DNA from: Apostichopus japonicus
Taxonomy: Eukaryota > Echinodermata > Holothuroidea > Aspidochirotida > Stichopodidae
Assembly: GCF_037975245.1 (NCBI RefSeq)
Contig: NC_092580.1
Span: forward strand, 2,141,501-2,205,500
Direction: 5' to 3'
DNA length: 64,000 nucleotides
In this document: in pieces, positions 18,559-59,700 of the stretch
Numbering within the stretch: position 1 is the first letter of the stretch
How the letters are laid out: each line of letters begins with the position of its first letter
Program-made: the position numbers and the translations under genes
Notes under the pieces: generated by a model
What the model was told of the DNA's origin: nothing
What the model saw: only the letters and a program-made list of their open reading frames with translations
The model's database searches: none

Positions 18559-18599
18559 TGAGGAGGGGGGGGGGCAAGTGCCCCTCTTGCCTCTATATA

Positions 18600-21150: not shown

Positions 21151-21159
21151 CATGGGTCC

Positions 21160-24100
21160 AAGGATTTATGCAGGTTCAATGCAGGGCTTAGTTTAGAACA
21201 TATGAATGGCCATTTAGCATTTACACATTGTTTCCAGCTGACAAATATGTTTTAATGCTAAAATTCATCAAGAGAAATGACAGAACAATACTATCAACAT
21301 AGCTATAAAAAATTTTTGTAACTATAAACCATGGAATGAGGATTGAGGAATTCGGCTTCTGGATACATCTTACAACTTGTATGAGTGAGAAACAACATTA
21401 AGTCTTGCATCAGTTTTTCCTTCCCAGTAAAAACGGGCCCTCCCTATCCAAAGAGGTATCGCGTTTTTCTGTTCATCAATATAGTGGGCCCCCCTTCTGG
21501 TAGGGGCCCCCGGCTCAGCACGGTCCGAGCCCATAAGAGATACGAGGCTGCCCCCACCTACCCCTCTCACAGCTGCCACCCGCCACCGGTTGGCTGGTTT
21601 CTTATGTTCCCCTCACGAAAGATGTAATATAGCAGGGTGGCTCGTGAGCCATTTGCGGCTCTTTCCAAATTAAATGCACGGCTAGCGGAGACATGTTGTC
21701 AGAGCTCCTTGTTACATCATAAATAATAATATACGGTAAATTGACAACATATGTGTAAGTTTTGTTCATGTCATGTTGCTCTCAAAGATCAGACGTTTAT
21801 CGTATTTTGCTGCTGTTACATTACTAAAGCCGTTGGCCACCCCTTGGAATATAGACTCTTAGAATCGGCAGTTAGTCTAGTGACCAAATATTCGACAGGT
21901 GGAAGCGAATAGCTCGCACTACTTAATGCACCACAGTTAGTGCGCCCAGAACTATTTTAGCATTGCATCACGTAGACAATTTATGTTTCAGATGTGAAGT
22001 ATTAAGTTGACTCTAATATACTCTAACCTATACAGAAGCAGTATTTTATATATATAGATATATATATATATATATATATACTCTTGGGAAAACTCTCGCA
22101 GTATTGCTGTAGGTGAGAAATTGTGTCTGGGAAGTAAAGACTTAGCGAATCAAGGTATTGACATCTCATACAGTATAAGTTGTAAATCCAAGCTACCGCG
22201 TCATTCCTTTAACCCGGTGTCTACGGGATCATCACCCTACGCAGCAGGATTAGAGGAGCATGAATAGATTATGCCTCCCCATCGATACTAAGTTCACCTG
22301 AGCGTAGTGAACAACAATAGATTTACGCCGAAACGGCGCAGACTGTGTTGGTTATTCGTTACTGTTTGGAAATTGTGGCTTGCAGATACAGTGGAAGTTG
22401 TGAAAGAAATTGTGGACCACCTAATTACTGATAAAGGGCCTAACTGAAACAAAGTAACATACATGCCGCAAACTTAACATGATATAGAATATGGAAGGAA
22501 TTATTTGTTGGTAAAACGGGACGGATGCTCCATCTCTTGCCCAGTTGAATGTTTACTGCTAGAACGACGATAACCTATCATCCGTCTGTTAACTAGACGT
22601 CAATGTAGCCTACAGAATGGTCGTAGTCAAGCAGTATATGGACCCATCGATACTCAACTGAAGTGTCGAGAAATTAAAACTATGCTTACGGTCGTTGGAC
22701 TTTACAAGATAACTGGATTTTAATGTGTAGGGCATATATGTTAATACAGTAAGCTAGGCTGTGTTAAATATATGACCCACGTAACTATGCAATTAAAATC
22801 CACAAAGGTAAGAATACAGTACTAATTGCCTATATGTATACAATGTAGACATATTCTAGGGTTCGGTATCTTAGTTTCGGATGTTAGAAATTACTTTTAT
22901 GGCCATGTCGAATTCTAAGTTAATTATACGGACATAGTTTGAGGTTCTTCTTTCGATGTTTCAACGGAAATATATTTTAATAGCTTGACTTGTTCAATTT
23001 TCATGTCAAATAATGAATTATCAGTTAAAAGTTTTGATACATTTCAACTTTCTGTTTAAATGGGAGTCACGTACTACCGTGGAACCTTTATTATGGATGA
23101 TCAAATGTTGAAAGTGAAATCAAGTTTATTAATTGCTCCCATAATCAATCTTCATTTGTTTAATAATTTAAAATGTTACCTCAGTTGGCCAACTGTAATC
23201 TTATAGTAAGTAAAGCTAAATAAATTTGGCAAAATATGTTGACTAGAAGCAAATGCACATTTTGTATTGACCCTTTGTACAGTTTCGATAGTAGCCTATA
23301 CCACCCTTACTAACACAATGTCATAGCTTAACAAAACTAACTTAACGAGTCAAGTTTGATGACGGTAAAGTCTAAATTTGACAATTTTCCAGTTTTACTT
23401 TATCATCGGCTATATGAGATACAGTGATGTGAAAAGTGGACAGTTATAGTCGAATGTCGCAAAGAGCCAAATGGAATACTATTATTACCGACTTAATTAT
23501 TTGGTGTCCATGATATTGGAAGTTGTTTCAATCTGATCATTCGAGCTTTAATCGTATTTTGAGTAATATTCAATGAAGCAGAAATATCAAAATTAGCAGA
23601 AATTAGAGGCCAAACCTGTTTCTACATTTCCACTACAAAGATCTTAAAAGTGTAGCAAACCCATCCATCACCATCTTTCAATATCGCAGAGAGATACATG
23701 TGATGAATAACGTCCCCAAATATCTCAGAAATATATTCTCATTATTCAATTTGAGAGATATCCCACCTAATTCATACCGTATAGACTGCATCAAATCTTA
23801 CATTATCGAATCACATATACTTGAATTATGGCGGTTTTTTTTATGTATTAATACTAATGCTTGCAGTTGCTGTAATAGAAGTGGGTTTTGCCGATGTTTC
23901 CTGACATGACCTAGCACTGGCATTGGTTTTAGTGTAACTCTATTTATAGTCAACTTGAATATGAAACGAAATACATACAACGGCAAAGTCAAAGGTGTTA
24001 CGACTTTAAAAAACCTAATACTTCATCGTCGGAGCAAAAGTTTCTTTCGACATTTCGGGAGTTGTTCATTACACAAAAGTCCCTAACATATACAGTAATT

Positions 24101-27100
24101 AAGTTATGAAGAAAATGATTGGAGTTTCTCTTCCTTTCGATATATCGTTGGTAGTTTCAACCCTTTCTTATTGATGGTGTTTTGTTTATTATTGCAGCAT
24201 CAATACAGATTATGTTTGGATGTGTGTTTGGCAGAAACCTTTGCAAATCTCGTTATATTAGTTTCTACATATACACCCTCTATTTAATTAACTTTAATAA
24301 TTAGCAGCACAAACAGGCTAGTACATCACCGTCTTAATAACGAGACTTAATTCCTGTTTGACTTAATGAGTTAGGTACTTTTGCCCAAGATGATTCCGTA
24401 TATTAGGTTACAAATCACCACCGGTAATGCACGATAGCTGTATCGCAGTATAGTATCGAATTTGCCATTATTGCATGACTCCAGGCTAATTGTTTAGGAG
24501 GAGACAATCGTATCTATTTGTACATACGTTCACCTTGGATGTATTTCAGACGGAACCTACAAATTAAGATTATAATAAGTAAACCGGTGAGCCAAGTTAT
24601 CGGTGTCTAAAAGAAGTAATTACTTTGTTAGTTACTATATATGGTGGAAAAGTTTCGGTGATCTTGTCGCATTGGTCTATACTGCTGGTTTCAATCTTTG
24701 CAAGGAGAGACACTTTTCGGTATAGTCCGAGCCATTACCCAGAACCATGTTTTCTCTTTCTTTCCCAAACGGCAGAAATCCTTTTCTGTCATATTTACTC
24801 ACTAAAGTAAGCAGTCAGCTGATATAGACTCTCCCTCCCCCATGTACCCCCCCCCCCATCCCCCATGTACCTCCCAATATGGACCATAGAAATTTGCAAT
24901 ATAGGCCTATATGACATCATATGACATTTATTATGAAGTACAATTAAATAATATATGATGATATGAACCATCAATGCACGGATTATGCATTTGCCGTGAT
25001 TTTTTCAGCATGCTGCTTTGAATTTACCGATAGCGTTTCATGCTGTCGTTCTGGATTGATAATATTTGGTAAAATTGGTACAACAGTTTCATAAAGGCCC
25101 GTCTACACCAGGGAGATATTAGGTCCTAACAACTCACTCGGCCTATACTGTCTTCCTTTCGGCAAAATATGTAGATAATTTAATACCCATGCAGGACAAC
25201 CAGTAGTACCTCCACATACCATTATACAGTCGGTCCAGTAGGCCTTAGTAATGATTCCAGCTAATGTCAGGCCTTACTACTACGTTTACTTCTTTTGCCA
25301 AGATCTTTTCTGTCTGAAACATTGATATATCTAATTTAACCATCTCCAGTTTCATGCAACAAGTAATGGAATTCAACATGTAGAAAGGTTTATTTGGGTT
25401 GTAGTTCTATTTTAAGTTTAGGACAAATTTTGGGGCTGTTTACAAATGATCTTTAAAACGAAAAAATGCCTTACGTTTGGTCGCAATGTTTTTTTCGCTT
25501 TACTTTTTCATGCTGTCTTCGTTTCCAAGGCCGCGTTAAGCTTATCAATGACTAGTAATGAGAATTGACCAATCTGCTTATCATGGGTCCGTTCTTTCAT
25601 CCGGCCTCTCGTTATTCAAACAAACAATATAGCGTGAAGTTCTATTGATTTATCTTCATCATTTCAATTGGGCTATTCTCATCGATTTTGGCTGAGACTT
25701 GAGTAATCAGAGAGATCCTTAGCGGGTGTACTCGACACAGTCTCCAAGGAGCAAATATTACTTATAACGAGAGACCGTGAAAGAAAACAACGGTGATTTA
25801 AATTAATGAGTGGGTCTCGCGCTGACAAACGCCATCTCAATGGTCAGTGAAGGGTGTGGACCGGGGGAGGGCATTCTAAATAGCCAGCTGAACAAGAATC
25901 CCGAAATGCAAGCTCTCATCTAATGATTATGTAACTAGCGCAACCCGAGCTCACATAAAAAATAGCAACTCCCGGCATATAGATACATCCCCTACTGGCC
26001 CCAAGAAAGGATATCGCACTATCCACGAGTGGATATAGGCCGTTATGTTAGCAACAATGCAACCTATGGCATCTGACAGGTCGTGGGTTCGAGCCCTGAC
26101 CCGCTAAATTAACGTCAGTTTTTCATCCTCTGAGATGGTATTCCCATCCAAATAGTCTACCAAATTGTAAAAGGAATTAATGAATCTATACTCCGTAAAA
26201 TAATTGCCCTCAAGGGCGATTATCGTAATATCAATTTTAAATTCAACAAGGAACTGCAAATGTATGTTGCAACTGATTCAGATCGAAGATTCATCTTACG
26301 AAATGTTTCATCAAACAACTCGAAATATAAATATGTCTATTACTATATACCTGTTTAATAAACGATTTACAATTAGCATAGGTGACTCCCGTCCACCCTT
26401 TGTGGAAATCAATGAGCATATGCCGAATGTGTGTATACGTCATCTTGACATAGAGACGATAGCCATCATAAACAGTGACCAAATATATTACAAAGAGACA
26501 TGATGGCCACTCAAATTAAAATTTGAACAATTATATTCCCTCAATTACAATTTATACTCTCAAAATAGTACTCTCAAATCTTTTGGGGGAAACTTGAGGG
26601 TCAAAGATCTTCCAGGAAAGCAATTTTAAACATCAAAATTTAGTGTAATTATAGAAGGCAATGTTAATGATCTTATCGCGGTAAATTTTAATTTCATCGT
26701 TTTTCCATTATTTCTGTGACATTCTGTCAACATTATTAATAATTATTATTATTATTATTTTGTTTTCTTTCAATTATTCCTGTTGCAATTATTCCTGTTG
26801 TTCTATGCCTGTTGCAGAACTATGTTCTAGATCAAACCAGTGACGTAACTAGGTCGGTGCGAACTCCCAGGGTTAGGCCCCAAGGGGGGGGGGGGTAGGA
26901 CTTTGAAAAATGCCACTGATCAGCTGCAGCCAGCCGTCGGCCATAAGCCAGTGCAGCGTTGTGTAGCCAGTAAACCAAACGCTCCCCAAAAATAGGAGTT
27001 CAAAAGAAATCCTGTCCACAACAGAGAAAGAACGAGAGGGCCGCATTTGAGCCTCTTTGAGGTGCCAAAAATACTGCTCAGCCCCAACCCATGGTTGACA

Positions 27101-28700
27101 TTGGCTGAATGTGAACTCTCATTTGGGGCCCCTTTTCTATTGTGGTACCGTGGCCCTGTTGGCGATGCCGGGTCGTTGAACCTTAAATATAGGACCCCAC
27201 GAAACATAGATTGGTGACGTTGAAATTGATTTCAACATTGATAAAGTGAAAGGATTAAAAAGAACCCCTATTGATCCAACATAATCTTATTATTGTAAAC
27301 AGAGATGTAAACATAACTGTTACAAGAGAAGTCAAGTTTGAAGCCTTTAGAACGACTATTTTCTTAGGTACTGAGTCGAAGTTATTGATTTATATTGTTA
27401 GTCTTTGTTATTATATGCTAAAAGAGTGGATTAGCATCTTATTAGTCGATAAATCCCAGGGATAAAGCCGATAAACATAAGGTTATTCCTCGGGCATACT
27501 CTATCAATTCTGTGACAGGGTGGGTCTAATTATTGGTAGCAACGTTTTTAAAATACGATTAAAAAGAAGCCATGCTACAAAAACTAAACTCTCATAATTA
27601 TGTTACTTCACTAATTTATTTTTGCGATGGTCAAACACTACAGTCAAACTCTCTAACTCTTTGCTGGATGTTAGGAAACCATTTTTAGAAGGTGGGGGGG
27701 GGGGGGAATATCTATATAGCAAAATAGTACAAGTTTCTTCATAACTATCCTTTTGTATATATTTAGGTCTTGGATTCGAACGTGATGGTCTGGGACTTTA
27801 ACGAATAAGCCATGCTGCAATGCTCGTTACAAGGTCGCTAATTCTCTCATAGACAAAGTTCATTACATCTCTTATGTCTTATCTTACGTCCTTATGATAC
27901 GTCTCTTATGTCTTACGTCCTTATGATACGTGTTAAAAATTGCAGTCAACTTAGATCCTAGGTTCTGCACTCAAGGAATGGGTCCTGGGACTGTGTCTGT
28001 AGGAGACCAACATTGTGTGGTTTGGGTGCACGTGACAGATACAGATGTAATTCCAGTAGTTGGCCTTCATTGAATAACTTGGTGGTTCCAACTAAAGACT
28101 AATCGTTAAAATCCAAAGCCTGTCTATCAATCCACCAACTATTGTTTTGAGTCGGATATTCATCTTCATTTACGTTCCAGTCGATGAAATATTTTGTATT
28201 CGGTCACCAATCGATATCAACGTACTGTTCTATTCATGTTTTCGATCAGTCACAAGGTAATGATTACATTAAATATTTACGTATACAAACATGATTACAA
28301 AAGGCAATGGTTTTAACCGTGATGTTGTTCTTCATCTATTCATTGCGACCGAAAACTTTGCTACGAACTTTAATTTATCGATACACATCAACCCCGCCTG
28401 CGGAGTGATTGTTTGTGCGTATATGCATGCGTTTGTTTAAGAACGCATACCATTGAATTTTCGATGACTCGTGCGTTCTTTATATAATTTAAATGTCTCT
28501 GGAATTTTCGTCAAAGTAACATTTGGATATATCGAGACAATCTGCACACGGGAAGTTGATCGAAATTAGAAGCTGCGAGCATTGGAACTTTGTCCGTTAA
28601 ACTACATCGCATAATTAAGAAACTTCCTTAAAGGAATTGAATGCTAAGCCTAAGTCTCGCTAAATCTCAAAACGGTAAAACAAGTCCCATATGCCAAGAG
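21160..28700. other. Intergenic stretch, no gene found
   Basis: Contains a (TA)n microsatellite (22046-22080), C10 and G11 runs (24847, 26885), a hAT-like end at 26839, and a B-box-like GTGGGTTCGAGCCC at 26083 that may be a decayed SINE. All open frames are under 100 codons and unconvincing. Confidence 0.6.
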
Positions 28701-28733
28701 CATTGCTTGAATACCTGATAAAAGACCGTGTGT

Positions 28734-28863
28734 ATGTCCGTCATGTTAGTTACGAATCCAAAGTCGCAGACTCAAGTTACTATATATGTCTCACCGAGTG
28801 CGCTTTTGAACGTGTTAATTGACTCAGGATTGCATTTGGTTGACAACCGCTATGGAAACACAG
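28734..28863 (+). CDS. Uncharacterised gene, exon 1 (coding or 5' UTR)
   Basis: Ends CACAG|GTAAGC. It is followed by a very short 64-base intron with a T-rich end. Coding status is doubtful because the next exon offers its own ATG. Confidence 0.4.
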
Positions 28864-31800
28864 GTAAGCGAAATCGTAGTTATGGATTATTTTTTATAAT
28901 TTTTTTTCCACATTATTTTGCCTATAGGTATGACAGATATGTTGTCGGGAGGCTACAATACCCAAGGGAAGGTGTCACCCCGAAACAGGAAGGTAAGATT
29001 TCATCAAACGTAGCCAAATTAATTGGTTACAAGAAAAATATAGGTATAAACTATATTGATATAATAAACAGGTGTGCTGTATAGGACTGCATACATGGAC
29101 GTCGTTATGGGCTACCTTGCGTCACAACCACTTTAAACACTAATCACGAATATGAAAGAGCAATACATTTAACAGAAGCCGATAAGCGATAAGGGATAGT
29201 GTTGGTGAGTAGTGTTGTTCAAGCAACGTGTGGATATGCACTTTCACATCGGGAATTGAATCTTGTTACAAACGGTGACATACAATCAATTTGTTGAAAT
29301 AATTCCTGAAAGTTCGTATACAGGCTTGCTCGTTATGTTGGCTAAGCTAAAAAAATGAACAATAAATTTTGTGTAATCATAAATTGACCAAAAGTCAAAC
29401 ATATACTTCTATACCGGAATAATCCGATGGTTATAGTTGTAAGGTCTACGTTGGTCTATAAATTATGATTGTTTAATCATACCTAATAGCCGAAGGCTAC
29501 AGCGAGTGTATAGACAAGCTAATGGTATTGGCCAACTCATTCATATCCAATAATTATGCATTTTATATCCCAGCCTGGTTCTAAACCACTTTGGTCCAAT
29601 TTGATTTAAGCTAACCATAGCCTATAGTTTCGCTCATCTACGCATGTGGTATGAACTTGGCTTATGGGGGAGATATCGTAGCTACCCCATGCCAAGGGGA
29701 GGTCAGAGTTGTATCATACCTTTCACACTCCTGGGGTCCGACAGATGACAACACCGGGTATTGTTAACTTTGAGTGTGCGGTTCATAAAATTGCCTGCTG
29801 TCGGACCACCAGTGGTCTGCATAACTGCATAACAGTCTTTAGTTTTGTCGAGCAAACATGGTCAGATCATAGCACGGGGTAGCTCTATAGAACCGGTTTT
29901 GCGATTTGTTTTTCAATCCAATGGATAAAAATGTAAGTAAAACCTTTTTTTATTTACATTCAATGTTGTAACAACGTGTCATTATGGTGAACAAAATCAT
30001 GAGAATAATTGTCTCAAATATTTATCACAGAATTCAATGTCTCGAGTCAACTTATAGTGAATCGCGTACGAAATATAAATAGTAATAGCATCCCCTCCGT
30101 GTAAAATGGACTGACTCGTTATGATTCTAAACTATCAAACTTATGGCAGACTTTCTGTACTTACTTGAATAACTTGGACACTGATCTTACCCCGCGCCAG
30201 ACATAAATGTTCTCCTACCCGTCCCTAGTGCATTAACATGCGGAGATGTCTTTTGTTAATCCAAGTCAAGCGAAAACTCAGGTCAAGTCGCATGCTATTC
30301 AGGTTAAGTCAAGTTAAAGGGGGCCTATAAATTGATAAATTGAAGTAAACAGATGTCATGACATTCTGTTAAGACCGACTTTATTTCAAAACTAAAACTT
30401 GCGAAGATAAAAAAGTGTCGCAAGGAGTTCGAACTATATAGGCCTACTGCTAACATTGCATATTTAAATATCTAATAAATCTGTCAACATGTTTTATCGT
30501 GTGTGGTCACTGTTTGAATCTTTGTCTTCATATTGCCATAATTAGTGTTTTTTTTTTTTGATTTTTTTTATAAAGTTCGTTGAAGTGGCTGGTAACCTGA
30601 AGTGCCCCTTTGGTAGCTTTAGTGTCTTAAGTGTTCCTTTTAAGTTCCAAATTAAATTTTAAGTAAAGGCCTATAACCTGTCGTGCAGAAAGTGTTCCTG
30701 TAAGTGTCACTATATTTTCCCTTGAAATGCCAAGATGACTGTACTTTATGTGATTGTTTAAGTGATTTGTTGTCCCTTTTAAGTGTCCTTTTAACTGTAA
30801 CTATATAGTCCGTTCAACAGGCAAGTCATTTTAAGTATCCATTTTAGTGCTTACGTCTCATTTTCCCTTAAAATGACGAGTGCCTTTAAGTCCCCTTAAG
30901 TGTCCCTATATGGTTGGTCCCTTTAAGTGACAAGTACCTTTCATTTATTCATTCATTGCTTTAATGTCAATTTAAGCGTCCCTTTAAGTGTCAATATGTA
31001 CAGTAGTCCCTTTAAGTGATATTTAACCTTATGTATCAATTTAAGAGTTTTACCGTCCCTTTAAGAGTCACGCTATCGTTCCTTAAAGTGGTAATCAACC
31101 TGAAGTATTTCTTTAAATAGTTAAGTGTCTCTTTATGTGTCGCTCTAAGTGACACTACATAATCCTTGAAGTGACAAGTGACTTAAAGTATACCTTTAAG
31201 TTTCAGTAAGAACCCCTTTAAGTTACACAAATTAAACCTTTAAGAGCCCCTTTCAACGTTTAAGTGTCCCTTTAAGTGTACATTTAAAGGAATAGTCCAG
31301 ACCAAATTTTAATATTAGTAAATAGCTAACCAGAAAAAAACAAAACAAAGCTTCACCAAAGCATAAATCTGATTTACAGGATGCGAGAAAATGCAGTTTT
31401 GAAACTAATCCAAAATTCTAAACAGTATGAACATGGTTGTAACGCCACGGATTTACTTTGTTCACCCAGCCCAAATGATTTCTAGGGCCTCTATCACTGG
31501 GTCCTGGTTCAAAGAAAAAATAAGCGAAAAAATCCCTACACATTAGGGTGTTACAATATTTCAGACCTTTTACCTAAATTAATTATAATATACTGTATAT
31601 AGTATTGTGGCTTCAAGCGAAGTTATCATTAACTACATGAAGGGGATTAACGGTGATAAAAGCCAGTAATTAATTAATATGACTAAGAGGCTCACTCTCA
31701 CCTTTACTGCAAGCTATGTACTTTTAATCTGTGACGAAGTCTACCTACGGCATCGAAATAATACACATTTTCATCAGTGTAAGGAATTTTGAATGACAAA

Positions 31801-41708: not shown

Positions 41709-41783
41709 CTAAATTCCTAACTCCTTCCAATTTTCTTTTAGCCAGTCGTGGTACTTGTTCAACATATGGTCCGTTGGTTTAAC
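41709..41783 (-). CDS. MBD4: MBD4 terminal exon
   Basis: Acceptor TTTTGTTTCACAG. Encodes [20 protein letters not shown] then ELGI and TAG; human MBD4 has [11 protein letters not shown] at the same place. Confidence 0.93.
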   Translation of the reverse strand, partial: VKPTDHMLNKYHDWLKENWKELGI

Positions 41784-44700
41784 CTGTGAAACAAAAGAAA
41801 TTGTATGAGATGGTTAAAGTGCATTTATTGGGTAAAACAACATAATTACAGAGTGCTGTTCTTTTCATGTTGTCACCTTATCTAAATTCCATGCTTAATT
41901 ATAATAATCAGATGGGATATTGATGTAGTAAGCAGAGAGTTTTATGAACTTCTAATGTAGGTTTATGATATGTAGGTTATTTGTAGGTTTACTTCATATG
42001 TACAGTAGGTTTATTTCTTTAAAAGAGCTTTCCAGGTAAGGCAGGGCAACTTTCAACATTGTCCTGAGCACTCACAAAAAAAAATTCACCTTTTCAAGAC
42101 GGAACACTTGACTTAATAATTATAGCAGTGAAAATTCCTCCACTTTGGTCGACCTTTGAACCTGATATCACCACTGCCAAACAGCTATTTTATTCTGTGT
42201 GACATTTGTGTTGAATTTGTACTCCTCTATTCAACACTATTTATATCATAACAATTGTAAAAGATTTCAAAGATATAGCAAATAAGTTTGACAGTAACAT
42301 ATGCAGGATTATGATTGGCTGAGCATAAAACACAATTTTTATATTCAAAACTTTTGAACTGAACGGAAAAACTCTATACTTTGGCACTTCTTCTTTACAT
42401 TTTCGCAGTGGATGAAACATATAATTTGCATATTTACCTGTCGCCACTCATTGACACAAAATATTCTGTAGGAATCATGGCCTAATTTGCATATTTACTT
42501 GTCTGCACTCATAGACACAAAATATTCTGTAGGAATCATTGCCTAATTTGCATATTTACTTGTCTCCACTCATAGACACAAAATATTCTGTAGGAATCAT
42601 TGCCTAATTTGCATATTTACCTGTCGCCACTCATTGACACAAAATATTCTGTAGGAATCATGGCCTAATTTGCATATTTACTTGTCTGCACTCATAGACA
42701 CAAAATATTCTGTAGGAATCATTGCCTAATTTGCATATTTACTTGTCTCCACTCTAGACACAAAATATTCTGTAGGAATCATTGCCTAATTTGCATATTT
42801 ACTTGTCTCCACTCATAGACACAAAATATTCTGTAGGAATCATTGCCTAATTTGCATATTTACTTGTCTCCACTCATATACACAAAATATTCTGTAGGAA
42901 TCATTGCCTAATTTGTGTATTTACCTGTCTCCACTCATAGACACAAAATATTCTGTAGCTAATTTGCATATTTACCTGTCTCCACTCATTGACACAGAAT
43001 ATTCTGTAGGAATCATGGCCTTATTTGTGTATTTACTTGTCTCCACTCATAGACACAAAATATTCTGTAGGAATCATTGCCTAATTTGCATATTTACTTG
43101 TCTCCACTCATAGACACAAAATATTCTGTAGGAATCATGGCCTAATTTGCATATTTACTTGTCTCCACTCATTGACACAAAATATTCTGTAGGAATCATG
43201 GCCTAATTTGTGTATTTACTTGTCTCCACTCATAGACACAAAATATTCTGTAGGAATCATTGCCTAATTTGCATATTTACTTGTCTCCACTCATAGACAC
43301 AAAATATTCTGTAGGAATCATTGCCTAATTTGTGTATTTACCTGTCTCCACTCATAGACACAAAATATTCTGTAGCTAATTTGCATATTTACCTGTCTCC
43401 ACTCATTGACACAGAATATTCTGTAGGAATCATGGCCTTATTTGTGTATTTACTTGTCTCCACTCATAGACACAAAATATTCTGTAGGAATCATTGCCTA
43501 ATTTGCATATTTACTTGTCTCCACTCATAGACACAAAATATTCTGTAGGAATCATGGCCTAATTTGCATATTTACTTGTCTCCACTCATTGACACAAAAT
43601 ATTCTGTAGGAATCATGGCCTAATTTGTGTATTTACTTGTCTCCACTCATAGACACAAAATATTCTGTAGCTAATTTGCGTATTTACCTGTCTCCACTCA
43701 TTGACACAGAATATTCTGTAGGAATCGTTGCCATATTTCCCAATCCCAAACAGTTCTTCTGGATATTTCCAATCTTTTGTCAAAAACTCATCTGTAATAA
43801 AAAGGAATAAGATCGATGTATTCTACATTTCAACAGATCTAACAATAATGAAATCATTTGAAATCATTTGGTATATAACTTGCAAGGGTTCAACCCACAA
43901 GTCCTCCTCTAAGCCTAGTGAAGCTCGATTTCAGAGAAGATTGGGGTAGTTTTACGCATACCTGATTGATCACTAGAGGAAGCGTTTTATACTGTGCACC
44001 CACTCCAGCCCTGATTTGAGACGCTCAGATCTGTAGAGGCTGTTGTACTGTTTTGTCCAGCATAGGACTACTGATGTAGGTTCCTATCAATTCTTGATCA
44101 GACAAACCTTCAGGTGAGCTAATGTCTCCATTTAACAACTTTATATGAGTTAAGTTATTAAGTAACTTTATGCTTCTTAATGACATTCTAGGAAATAAAG
44201 AGTAAATCATGCTTAGAAAATCAAAAAGAGAAAGAAAAGGAGTAAAATATCTAGCAATGAGAACATAAAGTATCTCTACCTGAAAATCTGATCATCATTT
44301 TAGCTCTTTTCTCGTGAAGTCCTAATGTCCAGATCATGTCTGCAATTGGCTTCCAGTCTGCTTTCTGTGTGACCTCGGGGGAAGGGTACTTGTCAAGGAA
44401 CTGCCACAGGATAGGAATCGCTTTCACACCTGATATTAAAATAATAATAGTAATCAGCAGTTATTTTTACGACGCTTAATGTGGGAGAAACCCGCAAGGG
44501 CTTATGGAATTACAACTCACATGTCGGGTGGCTTTCAATTCAACATTTTTAGCTCAAATTTGGAATCTTTTCAATTTAGAAAGTCATTCAGATGGGAAAA
44601 CCGTAGATTTCTCATGGATTAAAAATCCACCTTACTATGACCCGGCCGGGTATCAACCCGGAACCTCCCGATTGCTAAGCCTCATTGCTTCAAATGCCAC

Positions 44701-45875
44701 CGCCTTTATCCACTCGGCCACATCACCGGTAACAACGGAAACTTAGAACAAGTTATATGCAATAGCAAGACATCACATATGGTTTAATGAGTTAAAACAC
44801 TAAGCTAGCATATGAAGCACTCAAGGCACATGCCAAACTACAGTATCCTACTACACTACTTTCACTAGTGATCAAGACCCATGCAGTTCCAACCAGCTAT
44901 GGGCCTTAACTATCTCATCCCTATCTATGAAATGTTTATGGGAATGAGATCTTGTAGTCAATTGGCTAGTTGCAGCCTATTAGTGCTCATTCGGTATCCA
45001 TAGCAACGATTACCATGGAAATGCATGATGTGGAAAATTGACAAGTGAGGGTTCTATTTTGGGGTCAGGTGACTTAACTTGTCCATTTGTGTGTGTGCAT
45101 GAGTGGTTAAAAATAGTGTGTCACTAACACCTCCCAATGGACTTGAAACTTGGTTGGTATTTGCCTGGGTGTGGGATGAACTACATCTGTGACATATGAC
45201 ATCATAGTTCAAAGGTCCAATAACCTCAAGACCCAGCATTTTGGTTGTGATGTGATGCCAAAATGGCAAACTTGATGAGACCATCAGACATGTTACTTAA
45301 CAAAAACTGGCTGAAAGCATCATGCCCATACAGGAAGTGAAATCTGTTTGACTAATGTTTGAATGAAATGTTTACAGCCTATTCATTAATGTAAAATGTA
45401 AAAAGGTCAATAGGTCAGTGAGTTGAAGGACACTGGGTGTATCATGATCACCGGACCTTCAGAGTGATTACATCACAGTGGTCTTGTGCCCAAAATTTAG
45501 GATGAAATCTGCGTATGTATATTTGTTTGATATTTCAAACTTTTTATTTTGAGCTATATTCTTTTATCCTTAATACTTGTTTTGCAAACCAGTAAATTTT
45601 TAGACATTCAAAGCTTCTATGAGTAAAGAAATAATTCATATAAGACAGCGCTATTTCAGTCCCCTGTTTCAAGTTAATGCACTCACCTGTTGTTTTGTTC
45701 AAAAATATGGTGGCCACAAGCAACTTCCAAGGATCATGAAATAAGTTCTCTTGAACCAAATTGTACGGTGACTTTGGTGGGGTCCACTTTTCTCCTTTGA
45801 CTTTGGATTGTAAACTGGAGGGTGTCGTCTTGAAATAAGGGCTTGTCCTTCCTCTGGATCTCAATGTTCTGGTTA
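41709..45875 (-). CDS. MBD4: MBD4 glycosylase domain (four 3' exons, 172 aa)
   Basis: C-terminal HhH-GPD mismatch glycosylase of MBD4, which removes thymine or uracil opposite guanine at deaminated CpG sites. Exons 45875-45687, 44429-44280, 43791-43688 and 41783-41709 join in phases 1, 1, 0 and end at TAG. Conserved blocks as in human MBD4: [52 protein letters not shown], the helix-hairpin-helix [20 protein letters not shown] with the catalytic Asp in GNDSY, and [12 protein letters not shown]. All key residues are present. Upstream exons linking to the methyl-CpG-binding part at 56-61 kb were not found; see that entry. A tandem array of exon-derived units fills the last intron. Confidence 0.95.
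42420..43738. repeat. 61-bp minisatellite made of the MBD4 catalytic exon's 3' end and splice donor, about 22 units
   Basis: On the minus strand each unit reads GGCAATGATTCCTACAGAAT, then ATTTTGTGTCTATGAGTGGA, GACAAGTAAATATGCAAATT and AG. That is, codons [15 protein letters not shown], a usable GTAAAT donor and about 17 intron bases. Unit length is 61, with a few 50-bp units. A higher-order repeat of 417 bp is visible: 42904-43257 recurs at 43321-43674. The units lie immediately 3' of the true exon. Confidence 0.96.
43688..43791 (-). CDS. MBD4: MBD4 catalytic exon (helix-hairpin-helix and catalytic Asp)
   Basis: Acceptor TTTTATTACAG and donor CAG|GTAAAT. Encodes [20 protein letters not shown] followed by [15 protein letters not shown]. 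The 3' 44 bases plus the donor are the source of the adjoining 61-bp array. This is the only copy with the full exon. Confidence 0.95.
44280..44429 (-). CDS. MBD4: MBD4 exon: central glycosylase helices
   Basis: 150 bases, donor G|GTAGAG. Encodes [30 protein letters not shown] and [12 protein letters not shown]. Confidence 0.94.
44455..44730 (-). mobile_element. tRNA-Ser-derived SINE, family B
   Basis: The minus-strand head has a perfect A box TGGCCGAGTGG (44720-44710) and a T-arm CCGGGTTGATACCCGG (B box). The arrangement is like tRNA-Ser(UGA) with degenerate anticodon stem. An unrelated body of about 190 bp follows, with a poly(ATT)-like tail. Lies in an MBD4 intron. Confidence 0.8.
45687..45875 (-). 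CDS. MBD4: MBD4 exon: N-terminal part of the glycosylase domain
   Basis: Acceptor TTGTCTTATTTCAG and donor G|GTGAGT. Encodes a basic linker [14 protein letters not shown], then [20 protein letters not shown] and [14 protein letters not shown]. Starts in phase 1, so a preceding coding exon must exist. Confidence 0.94.
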
Positions 45876-46240: not shown

Positions 46241-48338
46241 TTACCAAAGATGTACAAAATACATGGCAAATTTGGTTGTTTTTTCATAGATCCCATACCC
46301 ATTTAGGGTGCTCACAGCTGCATCCGCATACATGCACAAGTAAACTGGTCAAGAAACCTGATGTGTTGCAGTAGAAGTTTGAAATATTTTGTATTTAGCT
46401 TTGTGGTAATTAACATATATATACATAATTTATCTCTACAAGTAGAACAGTTGAAGAAGTGTTATATGAAGTTTTATACAAATTACCAACCACACTCACA
46501 TACCATGAGTTCAATTGCATCATTCTGATACAGTGGCATTTAAACTCCATCCCTCTCCCCCCCCCCCCCACTTCCCCTTACCACCCTACAGTGTCTTATC
46601 CCAAGTCTCAGGAGTCAGGAGTATTAAAGGGACAGGCACAACATTAATTTTAGTATCTTGTAGACCAATACAAAGTATTCTGCTATCAGTACAGGTTGCA
46701 TTTCTACACCACCTTTAAGTTTGGCATTTAAACACCTGAGGCCTATTAATGAAATTGGCAGAATTGTCTAACACACACAGACCATGTCAGTACCTCAGTA
46801 ATGTAACACATGTATGTAACATAAAACTCACTGGGTACACATACGGCTTGCACGTTATTAACAAGTAATAAGGTACACCAGGACCAATGGAATTGAATGC
46901 CATCCAAGGATGATGTGTTGCTCATAAGAAATTGTTTGGATGAGCAACAAGAATTTATAAAACAATGAATTATCATTGACATGCATTAAAGGAGCCTTCC
47001 AGAGTTCTAGCGTATCATAACGGTGACTGCCTCATAAACCGCAACTCGTCTGAGTTGGTGATAGTCTACTTTGATGTCTGCATCAGTATTAAAACTCTTA
47101 CAAATGAGATCTCTTTAAACTCAATTGTAATCTCACTATATATAAATAATTCCATTGTATAAAAGTTGCTAACTGTGCAACTTCATCAAAATGGCACACT
47201 GCCAAAAGCCAGAGGATGGAATACCTTATGAACCAGTGTTATCACCCTATACAGCAGACTTTCTGAATAGGTGAACCACAGGGTCAAATCCATCCTGCTA
47301 AAAGGACTTCCATCTGAACCCACCCAAGAATAAGCCCATAATCTTGCACTTAAATCATATGCGGGCCCGTCAGGAATTGTAAGCTTGAGCAACATACTAG
47401 CCTATGTTGCTCAATTTAGATGTAGAGAGATGTTGGTTCACTTTGTACTTTTGCTCCATCATATGCTTTTCTCTGGTTCTCGTAGAAATCTATCGAAAAC
47501 CCCTGCAGTAACTGTAGTACATACAGCACCAGTTCTAACAATAATCATAGATATGTCTGGAAAACATACCGCATTAATTCCAGTCATAGAAATCATCCTA
47601 TTGCCTTGGTTAAACTGGTACCGCTTTTCTCATAGTGAAAGTTTTCAGCTCATCAAACAGCTCTGAAAGCCCCTCCCCCCCCCACCTCCACTTCCTGTCA
47701 CCTTCCCCAAAGAAATTTACAAAAAGACTTTACAAATGAATTGCCAAAGTCTACATATGTCAATATCATCATCATCCTTTATTCAACAATGACCGATTCC
47801 GGTAGAAAATTTCTACAGCATAAACTGACTCTTACAGAATAATTCATTACAGTTTTCTCTTTTGGCAGACTATTGAACTAATCCAGCACAAAATAACTCA
47901 CAGATTGTGGAGTAGTGGACTTCAATGATTTCTTAATGTTTATGGCAAAGAAATATATGAATAAAAATGAGATTGGTTCAATTCTTACAAAAGCAAAAGG
48001 ACGTTCTTTCTAAATTGATTTTACATATTTCTCAAATTACATGAAACACAATGGGCCACAATGACAAGGATCTTTAGATTACACCTGTATTTTGAAGTTA
48101 CTCTCATTTTACCGTAATGTGACATGGTTTTACCATACAAAGTGGCTTTAAAGGACCGATAACAGAGTACCCTTTAAACGTGACACAACCTAGTTTACCA
48201 CCCTTGTAACAGGAATGGTGACGTTATATACATATTCAACACAAGTTTGTCATTATTAAGTAAAGCATTACATGTTTAATTTGTGGGAAACACATGATTC
48301 ATTATTGGATGTAACCCTTACAGACTATTGTTAATGAA

Positions 48339-48906
48339 CAATAGTCCAGTGGTTATAGCCACACATCTCTTATTAAGTTTCAGGGGCATCTAGCCACGCC
48401 CAAACTCAACAATAGTCCAGTGGTTATAGCCAAACATCTCATATTAAGTTTGAGGGGTATCTAGCCACGCCCAAACTCAACAATAGTCCAGTGGTTATAG
48501 CCATAAATCTCTTATTAAGTTTGAGGGGTATCTAGCCACGCCCAAACTCAACAATAGTCCAATGGTTATAGCCATAAATCTCTTATTAAGTTTGAGGGGT
48601 ATCTAGCCACGCCCAAACTCAACAATAGTCCAATGGTTATAGCCATACATCTCTTATTAAGTTTGAGGGTTATCTAGCCACGCCCAAACTCAACAATAGT
48701 CCAATGGTTATAGCCATACATCTCTTATTAAGTTTGAGGGGTATCTAGCCACGCCCAAACTCAACAATAGTCCAATGGTTATAGCCATACATCTCTTATT
48801 AAGTTTGAGGGGTATCTAGCCACGCCCAAACTCAACAATAGTCCAATGGTTATAGCCATACATCTCTTATTAAGTTTGAGGGGTATCTAGCCACACCCAA
48901 ACTCAA
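48339..48906. repeat. 71-bp minisatellite, eight units
   Basis: The unit starts CAATAGTCCAATGGTTATAG and ends TCTAGCCACGCCCAAACTCAA. Copies are over 90 percent identical by eye; the first two carry AGTGG instead of AATGG. Confidence 0.95.
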
Positions 48907-51900
48907 CAGAAGGCGCTCTCATATCAGTCCTATCTACAGTAGTTCTGCGATACAGGACAAGTTGCAGTCTCTACCTGCAGATCATATTAAACAGTACCGT
49001 GACTTGATCACAGGTAGTATTTACAACTTACTTCAAACTTATTAAAGAAAGAATCTTTTTAAATATATTTTGAAGTTTTCAAGACAAACTCATTGTTTCA
49101 TGCACCTTAACTAGTGTCTGCATTTGGCCCCCTCACAAGTGGAACTATGAACTAGTCAATCAACTAGTGCATCTGTATTCAAGTTGATGCTATGAGTTTG
49201 CAACCTTGTGCGCACTTTCACACAATCGTGTTACTTTCATATAGAGATCTGTGTGCACTATAGAACATGTGTTAATAGGACGTTTCTTTGATATAGAGAT
49301 CTGTTAAACTATAGAACATGTGTTCATAGGACTGATATGACAGTACTTTCTGTAGAAACACTGGAGAACCACCATTTTGTGCGAATAAAACATGATACAA
49401 ATTTACAACGGAAAACAAAAATACAGTTATCAACAGTTTGTAAACTATCACTACAAATGATAGATTTATGTTGTCCAACAACACAATGTTGAGCAATGTA
49501 CTTGAAAAGTTTTGCAAGTGTTTGCTTTGCAAAAGTTCCAGTACGGTCTGATGTAAATAATACTTTTAAATATCATTCTCAAACATCAGCGTAATGCCAC
49601 TGGAAATAAAAATGGAGGATATCACATAGATCTTGCTATTCACTTGAGACAATAAATTGCACATGTTCTACTAAGAAAAGACCACAGAGAAAAGCAGGAA
49701 ATTAATTCTCTCACTGAAAATAAAGTTGACAAAGGGAATATTTCCAATTCTATTCTCTGAATACAGTTTATTATTTCTCTTCAATATTCAGAACGGGTTG
49801 TATCTCCAGAATTAGAACCATAAATAAATGCCTTAATTCAACAAATAGTATACTTTCATATTTGTACATTAAAATGAAAATGCATGTTATAATAATAAGT
49901 ACAAGCAAGGTATAGGAGCAAACTAGAGCAACTAAATTAACAAAATAATGCGCAAAGGTTATACAGTCAGCAAACTTCAATCCATGTCAATTTAATTTAT
50001 AATCTTACGTTGATTCTTTTTACTAGAAGGTAAAAAGGAGCAGACATAAATGGATACAAAAACAATTAAGAATGAGCTTGACCGCATGGCTTGATTGCCA
50101 GATGAAATAATATAAATCAAAACCCTGAAATAACCACCCCCCCCACCCTCACCATCACCTCAAAAAAAAACCAAAAAACAAGCATACCTAAACAAACCCC
50201 CACAAATCAGGAAATTTCATTTGTACAAGTCAAAGAAAGCCAATACAAGATTTTTACAGCAAAATTTACAAGAAAAGTTACTTCCACAGACCCCCCCCCC
50301 CGCCATCTATTACTTACACAAACTGTTCACGTAAATTGTTGATTAAATCTGATAGATTTTCACATGCTGATTATAATAAGTAAACAAATATTTTTTTTTC
50401 AGGCTGAAGAATTTTATGACATCCAACACGCAGTTTCCGAAAAAAATCAGGCATACAGAATATAACAATTATCTTTTTGCTGTTAAAATCTGGCAACTTT
50501 GGCTGTAAATGACAATCCAAAGCAACAATACACCCTGCAAACTCTCTTGGCAAATATCTTAGTGGATTGTACCCGGACAAAACCAAAGATTTGACTGCAG
50601 TTAACATTGATTTTTCCTCTCTAATTTTTGATGTATTGATGTTGTCCATGAAAGGTTGAAGATATGAGTCTTCCTGTAAGGGCAAACTTATGCTGACATC
50701 AGTACTTCAATTTCCTGTATTGGTTACTCTAATCCAACAGCGACTCTTAAGGCTGATCATATCTTGAATGTATCCTTAACAACATAAAAGAGGTTCCTTT
50801 AAATCCAACAATTGTCTGTTTCTGTATCGGACGTACTGGTCTATAAAACCAAAGTCTAACCAGCCAATTCTAGCCAAAATAGGACAAATTTCTTAGGTGG
50901 ATCAACTTTAATGTCAATACTGAGTAACGCTTGGTTACGATTGGAACCATTGCCAGATGCAATAAGAAAAGTTCCTAAAAGCTGTATTTTGCCTTGGGTT
51001 AAAATATGGGCACAATTTTGTCCATGCCATGTGATGTTTTTACATATATGAATCAATCTCAATCTTAGAATAAACAAATGTTTTGCTGCTGCTTGTCAAA
51101 GAAGATTCAAGTGTATAACCTGACAATACAGAACATTTTTTGTCCCAAAACATTTAATTAAAATGGCTTGAATTTGTTCACAGTTTAAGTTTATGACTAC
51201 TTTCATTGTTGCAGATCGCATGTTTTGTTGGGGGGACTACAGCAAAAATACTGGTTCTCTGTACCTAGGCTTATCTTTTGCAGTTTAATATACTACAACT
51301 AGATTGTGATCAATGCTAACACCAAATACAGCTTTAGAGAATTTTTACCAGCAAAAAACTGTTGAAATATGACAGCCTCCTGCAGAGATAAGTTGAAAGC
51401 TTTCACAGGATCTGTTACATTAATATATGAAGTGACCTAAGTGACGAGTCACACTGTTGCCTTTTTATAATTCCCAAGCGAGAATTTCAACTTAACGATT
51501 AAACAAAACTAAACAAATAAACACAATTTGGACATTCCAACAGTATTTTTAACTAGGAAGACTACTATATTAAACAAGCAACAGTCTAACATGCTGAAAC
51601 AAAGTAATGGGTTTGTTTCTCTTGCTTTTTTCAAATCATCAAAAGAGTCTTTTTTTTTGCCTTCCAAACTCTAATAACATTAATTTTTTGAAGGATTTGG
51701 ACTTGGAATGTAATTTGTAAAAGTGCAATTTTACTGATATTTTTTCTGTATTTAAAAGCAATACAGTATCATCACAGCCAAATCATTCTAATCAAAAATG
51801 AATATTCATAGATCTAGCTATTTCCAAGTATCCATGATTAAGTCCAATTTTGCTTGTCCTAGTTTGACAAAACACCATGATTTACATAGATTATGTTTCT

Positions 51901-53734
51901 CTTGTGAAAGATGCCAAGTACAAAAATGAGTATTGAAGAATCAAACATGAATTGGTCCAAACTCTATACTCTGTAAGTATGTTCACTTCTTAATTAAGAT
52001 AAGAAACCCTAAAAATATATTATAATGTCCTACAAGGTCAAGTGGTTCGTTTTCTTTTCTTCCAAACATATTAAATAAAAGATAATTTTTTTTGGCAATT
52101 AAGGCTTTTTAACAGAATCAGCTAGGTCAATGTGGCAAAAACTAAGAGATTTACTCTTAAAGAGATCATGATAGTAAAGAAAAAAACAAAGAGGTACATT
52201 AGAAATATGACAATGTGAACCAGAAGAGTCAACTGATTATGGCCAGTAGCATATTAAGGCCAATCATTGTACATTTATTTTCTCTGTTTGTACAGTTAAT
52301 GTTGTCCTAATATTGTTTCATTACCGGTGTTAACATTCGTTTATACCAGTCATCCCCCATATTCCAGATTACTAGAACACATGTGGTTAGAGCAGAACTT
52401 TCATACACGAGGGATTAGTCTTTTAGTTGGTGTGTTATTGCACATAACATATCTTTCATCTTATTTTGTATTTTAATAACACCCACCACATACCATGGAG
52501 AGTAAACATCTGTTCTTGAAATCTGTGGCCCAAATTCCTTCCAACAATGGCTGTTTGTGCTAATAATTCGCACAGACACCCAAAATGAACCTAACCAAAT
52601 AGGTATCAGTAAATATGGTAAAAAGCACATGCATTGCTAGGATAGGAGAACCACTTGTGTGCTGTCAAGCGAGAAGTAATAAGAACCCCCAGGTGACCTC
52701 TGACTCTTGTACAGCATACCAAAGCGAACTAGCAACCACTGTTGTAGAAGAGTGACTTTTATCAATCAAGGAGAAGCCATTATTCTGAATGGACTTCAAA
52801 CAGCAAACAAACAGTTTTCAGTACAAGCATAAACTGCATACTGACCTTCTTCTTTCCTGTTTAAATATTTCTTCTTCTAAATATTTTAACCATTTCTTGT
52901 TAGGAAATGAAAACCTGCCAAATCCCATGTGAACAATCCTCCATTTCACAGTGTTTGGGTCGTTCTTTAAAGGTAAAGATTCACAGAGAAACATAACAGT
53001 AGGTCTTTACAGTGGTAATACATGAGTGGGGTATTGCAATCTATTGCCAAGAAAATCACAATTAATAAACCCAATTTGTGTATTAAAGAAACCCACAAAT
53101 GGTACTGTATCTTCTCTATACTATTGAAAATGCATTAAATAGCTTTGATTTGAAGAGTGGAAAGTTGTTTATACTACAAAAGTCACAAAGACTTGTGATT
53201 GCCAGTTTGGCATTTAACTAAAAAACTTGTGAGCATCAGTTTGGCGTTTAACTAAACCTGGCGACTCCCTGGGATTACCATCAATAAATCATTTAACCTT
53301 TCTAACATTTCAAATTTGTGTATCTTGTACTAATACCTGATAATGTCAGACAACATTAACCTGCTAAGAAAGTAACTTTCACCTGTTGCTACTCTGCGAT
53401 GCTTTAAATCTAGTAGATGCCAAGATGATTTTTAATGATGCTTTGGTGTCACCATTATTGTAGGTGTGACAAAAGTAAAATGTTTCCTATACATTTGATT
53501 AGTCCAGGCAATAGAACCAACCATGTATGTTTATAGTAATAAAGCCAGTCATCTTGTTTTGCATTTACAGACGAGTTAAATACCCTGAGATTGCTACTGA
53601 GATTTTCATAGTTTTAACCCCCAAACCAGCGTAAACTTCACAAGGGACACATCAGAGAGGAGAAACCCTGGTGGGCCTGTGAGATGCTGGTACCTTTAAA
53701 CATTTTGCTGGGTACCAGAATAAACTAACATTCC

Positions 53735-54130
53735 CTGATCGCCAATGCCCCTTTTAGTTAGATTCCCTCATTGGCAATGCCCTCTTTTTGTTAGATTCCC
53801 CCAATGGCAATGCCCTCTCTGTTAGGTTCATTCATTGGCAATGCCCTCTTTTTGTTAGATTCCATCATTGGCAATGCCCTCTTTTTGTTATCTGATTCCC
53901 TCATTGGCAATGTCCTCTTTTTGTTAGATTCCCTCAATGGCAATGTCCTCTCTTTGTTAGGTTCATTCATTGGCAATGCCCTCTTTTTGTTAGATTCCAT
54001 CATTGGCAATGCCCTCTTTTTGTTATCTGATTCCCTCATTGGCAATGTCCTCTTTTTGTTATCTGATTCCCTCATTGGCAATGCCCTCTCTTTGTTAGAT
54101 TCTCTCGTTGGGGACAATGCCCTCTTTTTC
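53735..54130. repeat. 33/36-bp minisatellite, about eleven units, open on both strands
   Basis: The unit is TTAGATTCCCTCATTGGCAA plus TGCCCTCTTTTTG; a TTATCTGATT variant adds 3 bases. A 135-bp higher-order block (33+33+36+33) repeats once. Unit lengths divisible by three keep a frame open on plus (Leu/Ile-rich) and minus (ESNKKRALPM-like). One unit is 31 bp and breaks both. Confidence 0.93.
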
Positions 54131-56769: not shown

Positions 56770-59700
56770 CTGTCGAGAGAAGAACAAAAAGGGATGGAAC
56801 ACAGATATTATTGAAAATTTGATCAAATAAAGCTGGCTGTGGTGTATCAAGTAGTGAGATGATGAGAAGGCAAAAAGGACTGTAGAGTAAAACTGCATCT
56901 TCTATTAACGTTGAAGGTGCAAGACTCTTTGACAGCCTTTGGGTGAACAGAAAGGAGACAAGATAAAACAAATATTAGTTTGGTCAAAAGAACTGCACTG
57001 CAATTTTTATATCCACAATAACTTAGTTAAAAGAGCTCACTGATGTTTGGTTAAGTGAACAACCAAAGTACAAAATACTAAACAACAAGAACCCAGCAGG
57101 CACTATGGTTCCTTGCTTTAATGGGATATTAAAGTGTTGTTTGTCATCGCCCAATATCATAATCTCTATGCCCACATGAACCAGCAATTAAGCAACAACT
57201 GTATTCCAAGTTTGGATACAATCTATGTCTTGAAAGGTTGTGGAGTTATGGCAATTTTGAAATTTTGGCCTCCCCCCCAAAAAATTGGGCACAATAAAAT
57301 GTTGTGCCCAAATGGTCCCAAAAATATTGGGCTTCAGTTCACAAATCTGGGCCCAAAGAATGTGTCTCAAAATGCATATTTGCTGGAAATAAAATTTGCC
57401 CAGATGGCCTTCATGTACCAGCCATATCCAACAACTGCATACCAAGTTTGGCTATAATTCACCTTACGGTGGCAGAGTTATTGCAATGTAAAGATTTTTA
57501 AGTTTGGCCCCATAACCTTGTTAATATTTGTCAGGTCAGCTTCAAAAACAACATGGCACACCTTCTCACTATAATACATCTACACAGCAAGTACGACAAA
57601 TATCCATCACAGACCCAAGTCAGTTTCAAGAGCTCACTGATGTTTGGTTTAAGTGAACAACCAAAGTACAAAATACTAAACAAAAATTGTAAAACAGTAA
57701 CGACTACTTACAAAATCCATATAAATGAGCAAAGCTTTTACCACCATAGCATTTAAAGTCGAACGATAACAAAGACTAACAGATTCTCAATTTAGCAATA
57801 AAAAACATCAATTTCCATAAGGATAGACAAGGCAGCATGTTGAGGCTAATTAAGAAATAAAGAAAACAGGAAAGCCACAAAAGCAATACTGGAAAACAGA
57901 AAGGATTAAGAAAGACAAAACTTCAAACTGAAACAAAACTATGCCTTCACAGAGCTTACATACAAAACTATGCTTTCAAAATTCACAAAGCATATATACA
58001 AAACTATGCCTTCACAATTCACAAAGCATAAATACAAAACTATGCCTTTACAATTCACAAAGCATCAATACAAAACTATGCCTTCACAATTCACAAAGCA
58101 TAAATACCAAACTATGCCTTCACAGAGCATAAATACAAAACTATGCCTTCACAGATCATACCTGAAAATATACACATCATATTTGCCTGCTGATTTCCCT
58201 GTCATTCTCTGGCTTATTTTTCGTTTCCAACCTTCTGGCACCCCTTCCGTATCCTCTATGGTCAGTGTCGGTTGCCTTGGGGTTGACACTTTGGCCTCAC
58301 TGTTGTTACTCTTCTTATTGTTTTTATCGACATTCTCGTCATCGTTTTCTTCCAGGTCTTGGCCCGCTTTGTCATCAATTACAAGCTCATTATCAGACTC
58401 CAGCTCACTTTCCTCTGCCTCTTCTGCTTCCTCGGCAGTTTTGTCTTCACTCTGCTCATCTTTCTCTGTCTTTGAATTTAATTCCGAAGTTTCAACATCG
58501 GATTTCACCTGGTCGCTGTCGTCCGAAGATGAAGACATCTCGGTGCTATTATTGGCATTTTCATCGATAAGTTTTTTCTTGAAGTGTTTGGTCGTTGGAG
58601 AAGCATGACTTTCTGGAGGAGGACTCAATGGCTTAATTTTACAAATCGTGCTGCCGCAATTGTCGCTGGATTCAGATGAGACTGTTCTGTGAAGAAAGAA
58701 TAACAATAACACAAGATAAACAGATATCTGTTATTGTCAGGGAAATGTTTCAAAACTCCAAATGATCTAATACTCCATATACTCAAAGTTAACTTTATTC
58801 ACAATGAAATGAATGCAAAAAAAAAAAACAACAGGGAAATTTTCATTTGCCATTTTCAGTGTAATATACGCATTCACATTTTCCAGTACATCAATGAAGC
58901 AGAATGATGGATGCAGTTACTTGTTTGTTTACAAAAGTCTAATTAAGTTGTCATAAATGGAGAATTTGGGCTTTCATTTCTTGTTGTATTTCTAATTACG
59001 TTTAACTTTTTCTTAAATTTCTTCTTTTCACAATTTAGTAAATGATAGAGACTATAATTCAGTGGTCAACAACCTTTGTAGGACGCGACCCAGCCAATAG
59101 TTTGTGGGTTTCAGTCAATCAGTCATCTATCTGTCCCCTTTCCCCCCTCCCAGTTATAATCATATATAGTAAGACGGGGTAAAAAAAAAACGTTTCCTTA
59201 AAGTTTAACATAAAACTCGTTAGGTAGATGCTTAGGTAGATATTTTAGCATTGTCAGTTGACAAGTGGGAATACCTTCCTAAATAGCCATAATAAAAATT
59301 TCAATCACAATGAGTAAAGGAGAAATTCCAGAAAAGGGGTGGTTTTTTTTTACCCCGGCTGTTCGTCATTTTTGGGGTAAAAAAAAACCCTGCTGGGGTA
59401 AAAAAAGTCCACACTGTTAAAACAACATACTACCAAAGAAAATGTGCAAAACCACCAGAAATATTTTCAGCACACTTTAGAAAAGCTTTATTTGGGCATT
59501 TTCAATCAAGTTCTGCATGAATTAACCTATTGCCAAAGGATAAACTCCCGGAAACAAACCCCACCTTCCGAGACTAAGCAAGATTCTATCAAGACTGTTT
59601 AATACCCCCTAAAACATTATTGACCATGTTTTATGAGTTTTATTCTATATATTAGTATCACATCCAGCTGTGGGGTTGGGACTTAGGGTAGAGAAAAATT

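Follow-up and report, generated by a model that had tools for sequence, protein, structure and literature searches.

Copies of an exon end and its splice donor form a minisatellite in an MBD4 gene of the sea cucumber Apostichopus japonicus, and similar arrays occur in other genes of the genome

Where the end of a coding exon, splice donor included, has been copied many times into the intron that follows, the question arises which of the donors is used, how the row of copies came about and whether it is peculiar to the gene in which it is found. Such an arrangement is present in an MBD4 gene of Apostichopus japonicus, encoded on the minus strand of the window, by which we mean the whole 64,000-nucleotide stretch analysed (C20:2141501-2205500 of a genome of 671,581,487 bases in 35 contigs). 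The protein encoded by four joined glycosylase exons matches MBD4 PDB chain 4dk9, which we take to be the human protein, with an E value of 2.4e-71 over residues 3-145 of 146; the identity proposed by a first-pass annotation, made from the DNA letters, is thus borne out. A whole-genome protein search retrieved only those four MBD4 glycosylase exons at E ≤0.001. The Asp encoded by the penultimate exon is the catalytic residue. The relevant parts of the gene are listed below (a slash marks the exon-intron boundary).

58162..58730, minus strand: open stretch with the exon for the first half of the MBD domain (Pfam MBD; donor CAG/GTATGA at 58161); 58730 is the limit of the open reading frame rather than a mapped exon start
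45687..45875, minus strand: exon at the start of the glycosylase domain, donor CAG/GTGAGT
44280..44429, minus strand: exon before the penultimate one, ending ...MMIRFS, donor CAG/GTAGAG
43688..43791, minus strand: penultimate exon of 104 nt (4dk9 alignment), whose last 44-45 bases are the array seed
43679..43687, minus strand: authentic donor, intron side GTAAATACG, reading CAG/GTAAAT with the exon end
41709..41783, minus strand: last coding exon, starting at 41783 (4dk9 alignment)

A second array was seen in the same gene, consisting of six 36-bp units at 57946-58161 on the minus strand. It begins no more than about 8 bases away from where the MBD-domain exon has its donor and was apparently built from intron rather than exon sequence.

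The array behind the penultimate exon was reported by TRF as 22.0 copies of a 61-bp unit at 42422-43732 (score 2083). On the minus strand it contains 22 GTAAAT sites between 43687 and 42437, that is, the authentic donor and 21 decoys, which are spaced by 61 bp (17 times), 51 bp (three times) and 60 bp (once). Its features are as follows.

42422..43687, minus strand: minisatellite array of 21 decoy units, each with GTAAAT (three of 51 bp, one of 60 bp, 17 of 61 bp)
43637..43687, minus strand: first unit, 51 bp, adjoining the exon and ending at decoy 43636
43636, 43575, 43514, 43453, 43392, 43341, 43280, minus strand: decoys 1-7
43219, 43158, 43097, 43036, 42975, 42924, 42863, minus strand: decoys 8-14
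42802, 42742, 42681, 42620, 42559, 42498, 42437, minus strand: decoys 15-21
43213..43670, minus strand: higher-order block, copy 1, shifted by 417 bp from its partner with one mismatch in 458
42796..43253, minus strand: higher-order block, copy 2, partner of 43213-43670

A unit combines 44-45 bases of the exon with the first 16 of the intron, among them the donor. The 17 full 61-bp units vary at 10 columns and have a mean pairwise identity of 0.951. A single mismatch in 458 positions separates the two higher-order block copies, which share exact stretches of 374 and 83 bp; the array has therefore grown recently, in a step of 417 bp. Each 51-bp unit comes after an exon-like donor in which CAG/GTAAAT is preceded by TTCTG and AAT; such donors belong to the exon itself and to the units that end at 43392 and 42975, so that each higher-order block is headed by exon-like sequence. 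These data agree with the first-pass description of a 61-bp minisatellite amplified about 22 times, of units made of exon end, GTAAAT donor and intron start, and of a 417-bp block as a second amplification. An Asn-to-Tyr change said to be common to all units holds for most of them: the underlying A-to-T change is present in 15 of the 21 (as a Tyr codon in 14, while a 1-bp deletion disrupts the codon in the other), and the remaining six retain Asn. When the array was used as a DNA query against the whole genome, in a search able to skip common words, the window itself was the one locus listed.

The 64-kb window is repeat-rich, and TRF found further minisatellites at 53730-54129 (33 bp, 12 copies) and 48337-48908 (71 bp, eight copies, 97% matches). 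At 14144-14705 a 279-bp segment is duplicated in tandem with 99% identity and is directly followed by a partly inverted copy of its end; it lies downstream of exons of the matrix metalloproteinase type, which gave Peptidase_M10 matches within 13064-13441 and 13762-14064. Elsewhere in the genome, contig C29 carries several COX1 pieces at 14745-31219, one of them about 15 kb from the rest; these are perhaps mitochondrial fragments or belong to a misplaced contig. Contig C35 carries a full-length mitochondrial COX1 in which AAA, read by code 9, coincides with Asn of mammalian COX1; code 9 is used by echinoderm mitochondria and is shared with flatworms. A lancelet origin is thus not supported; a search for GFP also gave no match, which is weak evidence since its control likewise found nothing.

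It had been proposed that every unit carries an intact decoy donor, and this view did not stand. All 21 decoys have GTAAAT; in 15 of them the G at position -1 is lost (CAA/GTAAAT), so that the consensus G is absent at both -1 and +5. The authentic MBD4 donor also lacks the +5 G but has the -1 G. The six other decoys have the same 9-base donor as the authentic site and nearly the same flanks. Pairing with the 5' end of U1 was predicted at -1.8 kcal/mol for the CAA/GTAAAT decoys versus -8.3 kcal/mol for the authentic site and the six intact decoys. Each of the four decoys closest to the exon is of the weakly pairing CAA/GTAAAT type, a run that is not improbable given 15 such decoys among 21 (about 0.23 by hand calculation). 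Likewise, with 10 of 61 columns variable, the six donor columns would all be invariant by chance with a probability of 0.32, and donor invariance is therefore no sign of constraint on the decoys. As far as the DNA can tell, nothing points to selection for them.

According to the earlier view, use of a distal donor shifts the reading frame. This is not so for the first decoy (43636), which lies 51 bp from the authentic donor and whose use would add 17 residues in frame, and the three 51-bp units are each divisible by 3. Use of decoy 2 would create a stop 37 nt before the exon junction, and for use of decoys 3-21 (19 of 21) stops are predicted 98-1,175 nt before it. Premature stops located more than 50-55 nt before a junction usually lead to transcript decay; by this rule decay is expected for the products of decoys 3-21. 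Some low-level use of the decoys is quite possible; it would then slightly lower MBD4 output by this route.

Arrays of a related kind are on record in other animals. In 1995 Turri is said to have described a minisatellite with multiple splice donor sites in human IFI6 (6-16, G1P3), and intron gain from tandem arrays was reportedly dealt with by Rogers in 1989 and Zhuo in 2007. Among the closest parallels are the lancelet mirages, minisatellite-like duplications of intron-exon boundaries that one report describes in globins, citing Adh3 as well, with units of 10-72 bp in Adh3 and 150-160 bp in globins and with lengths that vary between haplotypes (PMC3087553). To these another report adds PGBD5 and TnC (PMC3902484). 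The Adh3 data and RT-PCR are said there to suggest that mirages leave regular splicing undisturbed (PMC3087553), as is likewise stated in the second report (PMC3902484). The MBD4 array shares with the mirages (Adh3, the globins BflGb6 and BflGb9, TnC, PGBD5) the tandem duplication across an exon-intron boundary, here 44-45 exon and 16 intron bases, many copies with splice signals (all 21 decoys have GT, and six have the -1 G), a unit length within the reported range, and block turnover, although the near-identical 458-bp block copy comes from one assembly and bears only indirectly on length instability. It differs in belonging to another phylum, the echinoderms, in having 21 decoy units compared to 6 and 3 repeat units in two BflGb6 haplotypes, and in affecting the donor side only; moreover, regular splicing is a prediction for MBD4. 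In the features that can be examined in the DNA, the MBD4 array fits the description of a mirage.

Human IFI6 resembles MBD4 in that a minisatellite offers several donors in tandem units. It differs in gene and lineage, and two downstream IFI6 units reportedly serve as donors, giving rise to three mRNA species (PMC4526556). Repeats at human exon-intron boundaries of segmental duplications, which generate introns according to PMC2812944, and tandem-array intron gain also place splice signals in repeats at exon edges; however, those cases yield new introns or variable exons, whereas the MBD4 units have no clearly good acceptor. The statement that no such case had been described may thus hold for DNA-repair genes but not for the kind of array. 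Among the open-licence papers listed in literature searches, no title or abstract opening mentioned mirages in echinoderms or this MBD4 array. A homologue of Adh3, the classic mirage gene of lancelets, was found on C6; in the seven loci L006-L012 TRF arrays overlapped no matched exon stretch and no mirage was seen, donor positions being approximate.

The idea that the array is unique to MBD4 had to be rejected because scans for runs of three successive donor words turned up further arrays seeded at exon ends. A genome search with AGGTRAGT, whose listed matches cover C1 and C2 up to 10.27 Mb, gave at least 13 clusters among those matches. All 13 were inspected; six of them have their first donor at the end of an open stretch that looks like an exon, and five of the six are supported. 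No exon was seen at the clusters at C1:3939066, 4481656, 4703609, 4704988 and 12874892, and exon anchoring was ambiguous on inspection at C1:14163908 and C2:6511341. Stricter words, for which the listing is complete, retrieved six arrays of CAGGTAAGT and nine of AAGGTAAGT. Inspection by eye of about 230 bases upstream of all 15 array starts identified four arrays that are exon-anchored with exon bases copied (KRI1, L045, L048, L049). Two others, L046 and L052, have long open frames without Pfam match that run into the arrays, and upstream of the other eight no exon was seen by eye. The exon-associated arrays from both searches are listed here.

YJU2: exon-anchored array (Pfam PF04502, 2.8e-12; PDB 6zym, 2e-12)
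UGCG: exon-anchored array (PDB 26qs, 7.6e-17)
SPTLC1: exon-anchored array (PDB 7yjm, 1.1e-5; no Pfam match)
C1:2433492 (L030): array in an amino-acid transporter gene (PF01490, 5.5e-8)
C1:2475062 (L058): near copy of the transporter, 41 kb away, assigned by sequence only
C2:4780958: sixth exon-like cluster, no family match; six units, differing from the exon end
KRI1: array (PF12936, 7.9e-29)
L045: array behind a long open frame without PDB or Pfam match, in a gene presumed to be VPS39
L048 and L049: arrays behind exon-like stretches, no family match
L056: array flush with an exon-like end, without clear exon copy or family match

SPTLC1 is the weakest case, with only about 5-12 exon bases resembling the units. 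The two near-identical transporter genes share an exon-end donor array made of 76-77-bp units, and the pair offers a chance to compare array growth in paralogues. Extrapolating by hand from five independent cases in 31.9 Mb, we arrive at about 105 exon-end arrays with AGGTRAGT donors in 671.6 Mb (Poisson 95% interval about 34-246), or about 63 (13-185) if only the three strong cases YJU2, UGCG and transporter are counted. Compared with reversed-word controls, and counting overlapping matches rather than arrays, the AGGTRAGT searches yielded 592+421 versus 508+286 and 453+518 versus 412+295 matches, and the stricter words 61 versus 48 and 50 versus 38. Given this modest excess, we make no claim that donors are preferred sites of array formation; on rough considerations, arrays seeded at random would often take in real donors as well.

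Decoy quality differs among these genes. With the exon end included, the YJU2 array numbers 30 units, which are 39 or 41 bp long; of its 29 decoys, 11 equal the real donor and 18 carry the G-1A change. In KRI1 all nine decoys in the piece examined are CAG/GTAAGT, identical to the real donor, with more beyond, and all eight decoys seen in L048 keep the -1 G; the KRI1 and L048 arrays were found via intact donor words, however, so that comparison of the -1 G with YJU2 and MBD4 is biased. We also considered YJU2 as a reservoir of in-frame repeats and rejected this, since the frame continued from the exon runs into a stop codon in unit 2, although inner stretches are open. In UGCG and KRI1 read-through ends at the donor or directly behind it and in L048 a few residues beyond it, and among the five genes read through only L049 is open through its units. 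There, at C2:13555057-13555197 on the minus strand, an exon-like stretch and five 33-bp decoys are open in frame (SVQIVTKVSHE repeats).

We think it likely that the MBD4 array reflects neutral, mirage-type growth of a minisatellite seeded at an exon end, and that the authentic donor is the one mainly used. A tandem duplication with breakpoints about 45 bases before the exon end and about 16 bases into the intron would have started the array, and unequal exchange or replication slippage would have enlarged it to 22 copies, the exon end being one of them, with the recent 417-bp block duplication as part of this growth. The spliceosome would mostly use the authentic donor and remove the array with the intron, as suggested by the location of this donor beside the exon's own acceptor, by the weakening of the four nearest decoys through G-1A and by the poor cryptic acceptor described below. 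The same anatomy in YJU2, UGCG, KRI1, the Aa_trans gene pair and others argues for this account; the six of 21 decoys whose 9-mer is identical to the authentic donor are a point against a neutral reading. Because downstream units of IFI6 serve as donors, bypass of the decoys is not to be assumed, and because the KRI1 decoys seen equal the real donor, weakening is not a general rule. A model in which appreciable use of the decoys adjusts MBD4 output, the level being set by array length or splicing-factor balance, appears quite improbable to us. It would have decoy 1 produce an isoform longer by 17 residues, decoy 2 a truncated protein and decoys 3-21 degraded transcripts, which fits the predicted products (+51 nt in frame; a stop at 37 nt; 19 of 21 stops 98-1175 nt before the junction), and it can draw on six decoys that match the authentic donor in predicted strength and on the precedent of IFI6 (PMC4526556). 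Yet the four nearest decoys are weak by predicted U1 pairing, the strong ones would require exons of about 400 to 1,355 nt, invariance of the donor columns is not above chance (0.32), and lancelet mirages are reported to leave splicing undisturbed (PMC3087553, PMC3902484).

The units had further been suggested to act as 44-base cryptic exons read from AG/GC to the next donor. An extended form of this idea, in which the AG and GT of a unit are both used, so that units form cryptic exons or initiate intron gain in the sense of Rogers' tandem-array model, is very unlikely in our judgement. Each full 61-bp unit contains AG...GT, and PMC3087553 and PMC2812944 consider intron gain from tandem arrays in lancelet globins and in duplicated human genes. 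The proposed acceptor ATTAG/GC, however, has only 31% pyrimidines at positions -20 to -5 compared to 62-88% in 10 acceptors of this genome inferred by homology or exon shape, which speaks against the 44-base exon; the AGs of one unit have shares of 0.31 (proposed AG/GC), 0.62 (TACAG), 0.56, 0.62 and 0.38, and thus range from 0.31 to 0.62 against 0.62-0.88 in the comparison set. Exons of 44-45 nt or 28 nt would also be very short. That the array is an assembly artefact is extremely improbable. Nothing in this analysis spoke for it, although short-read assemblies can misjudge such arrays; the units differ in ordered, diagnostic ways, and the same anatomy is present at independent loci. Should the sequence come from the A. 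japonicus assembly of 2023, the underlying data are 64x HiFi reads with a mean length of 14.7 kb, more than 10 times that of the array (PMC10344927). The array is real, and its neutral growth beside a donor in regular use remains our preferred explanation.

In a broader reading, exon-end donor arrays would be common in this sea cucumber genome, which would tolerate them and possibly put them to use; strong AGGTRAGT donors alone would account for some tens to a few hundred of them. We consider this rather unlikely, the more so as YJU2 is not readable in frame. If it were true, YJU2, itself a splicing factor, and similar genes would show the spliceosome a row of near-identical donors, and polymorphism in array length would translate into heritable variation in NMD-coupled output of MBD4, YJU2, KRI1 and UGCG or, where units are open in frame as in the five 33-bp decoys of L049, into heritable variation in protein length.

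Taken by itself, the MBD4 array clearly exemplifies a curiosity already on record, and the wider result is the recurrence of such arrays across one echinoderm genome, which, judged from their anatomy, suggests that mirages are not peculiar to lancelets. Recurrent arrays, some with decoys identical to the real donor, represent natural many-donor constructs that allow tests of how the spliceosome chooses among many equal 5' splice sites.
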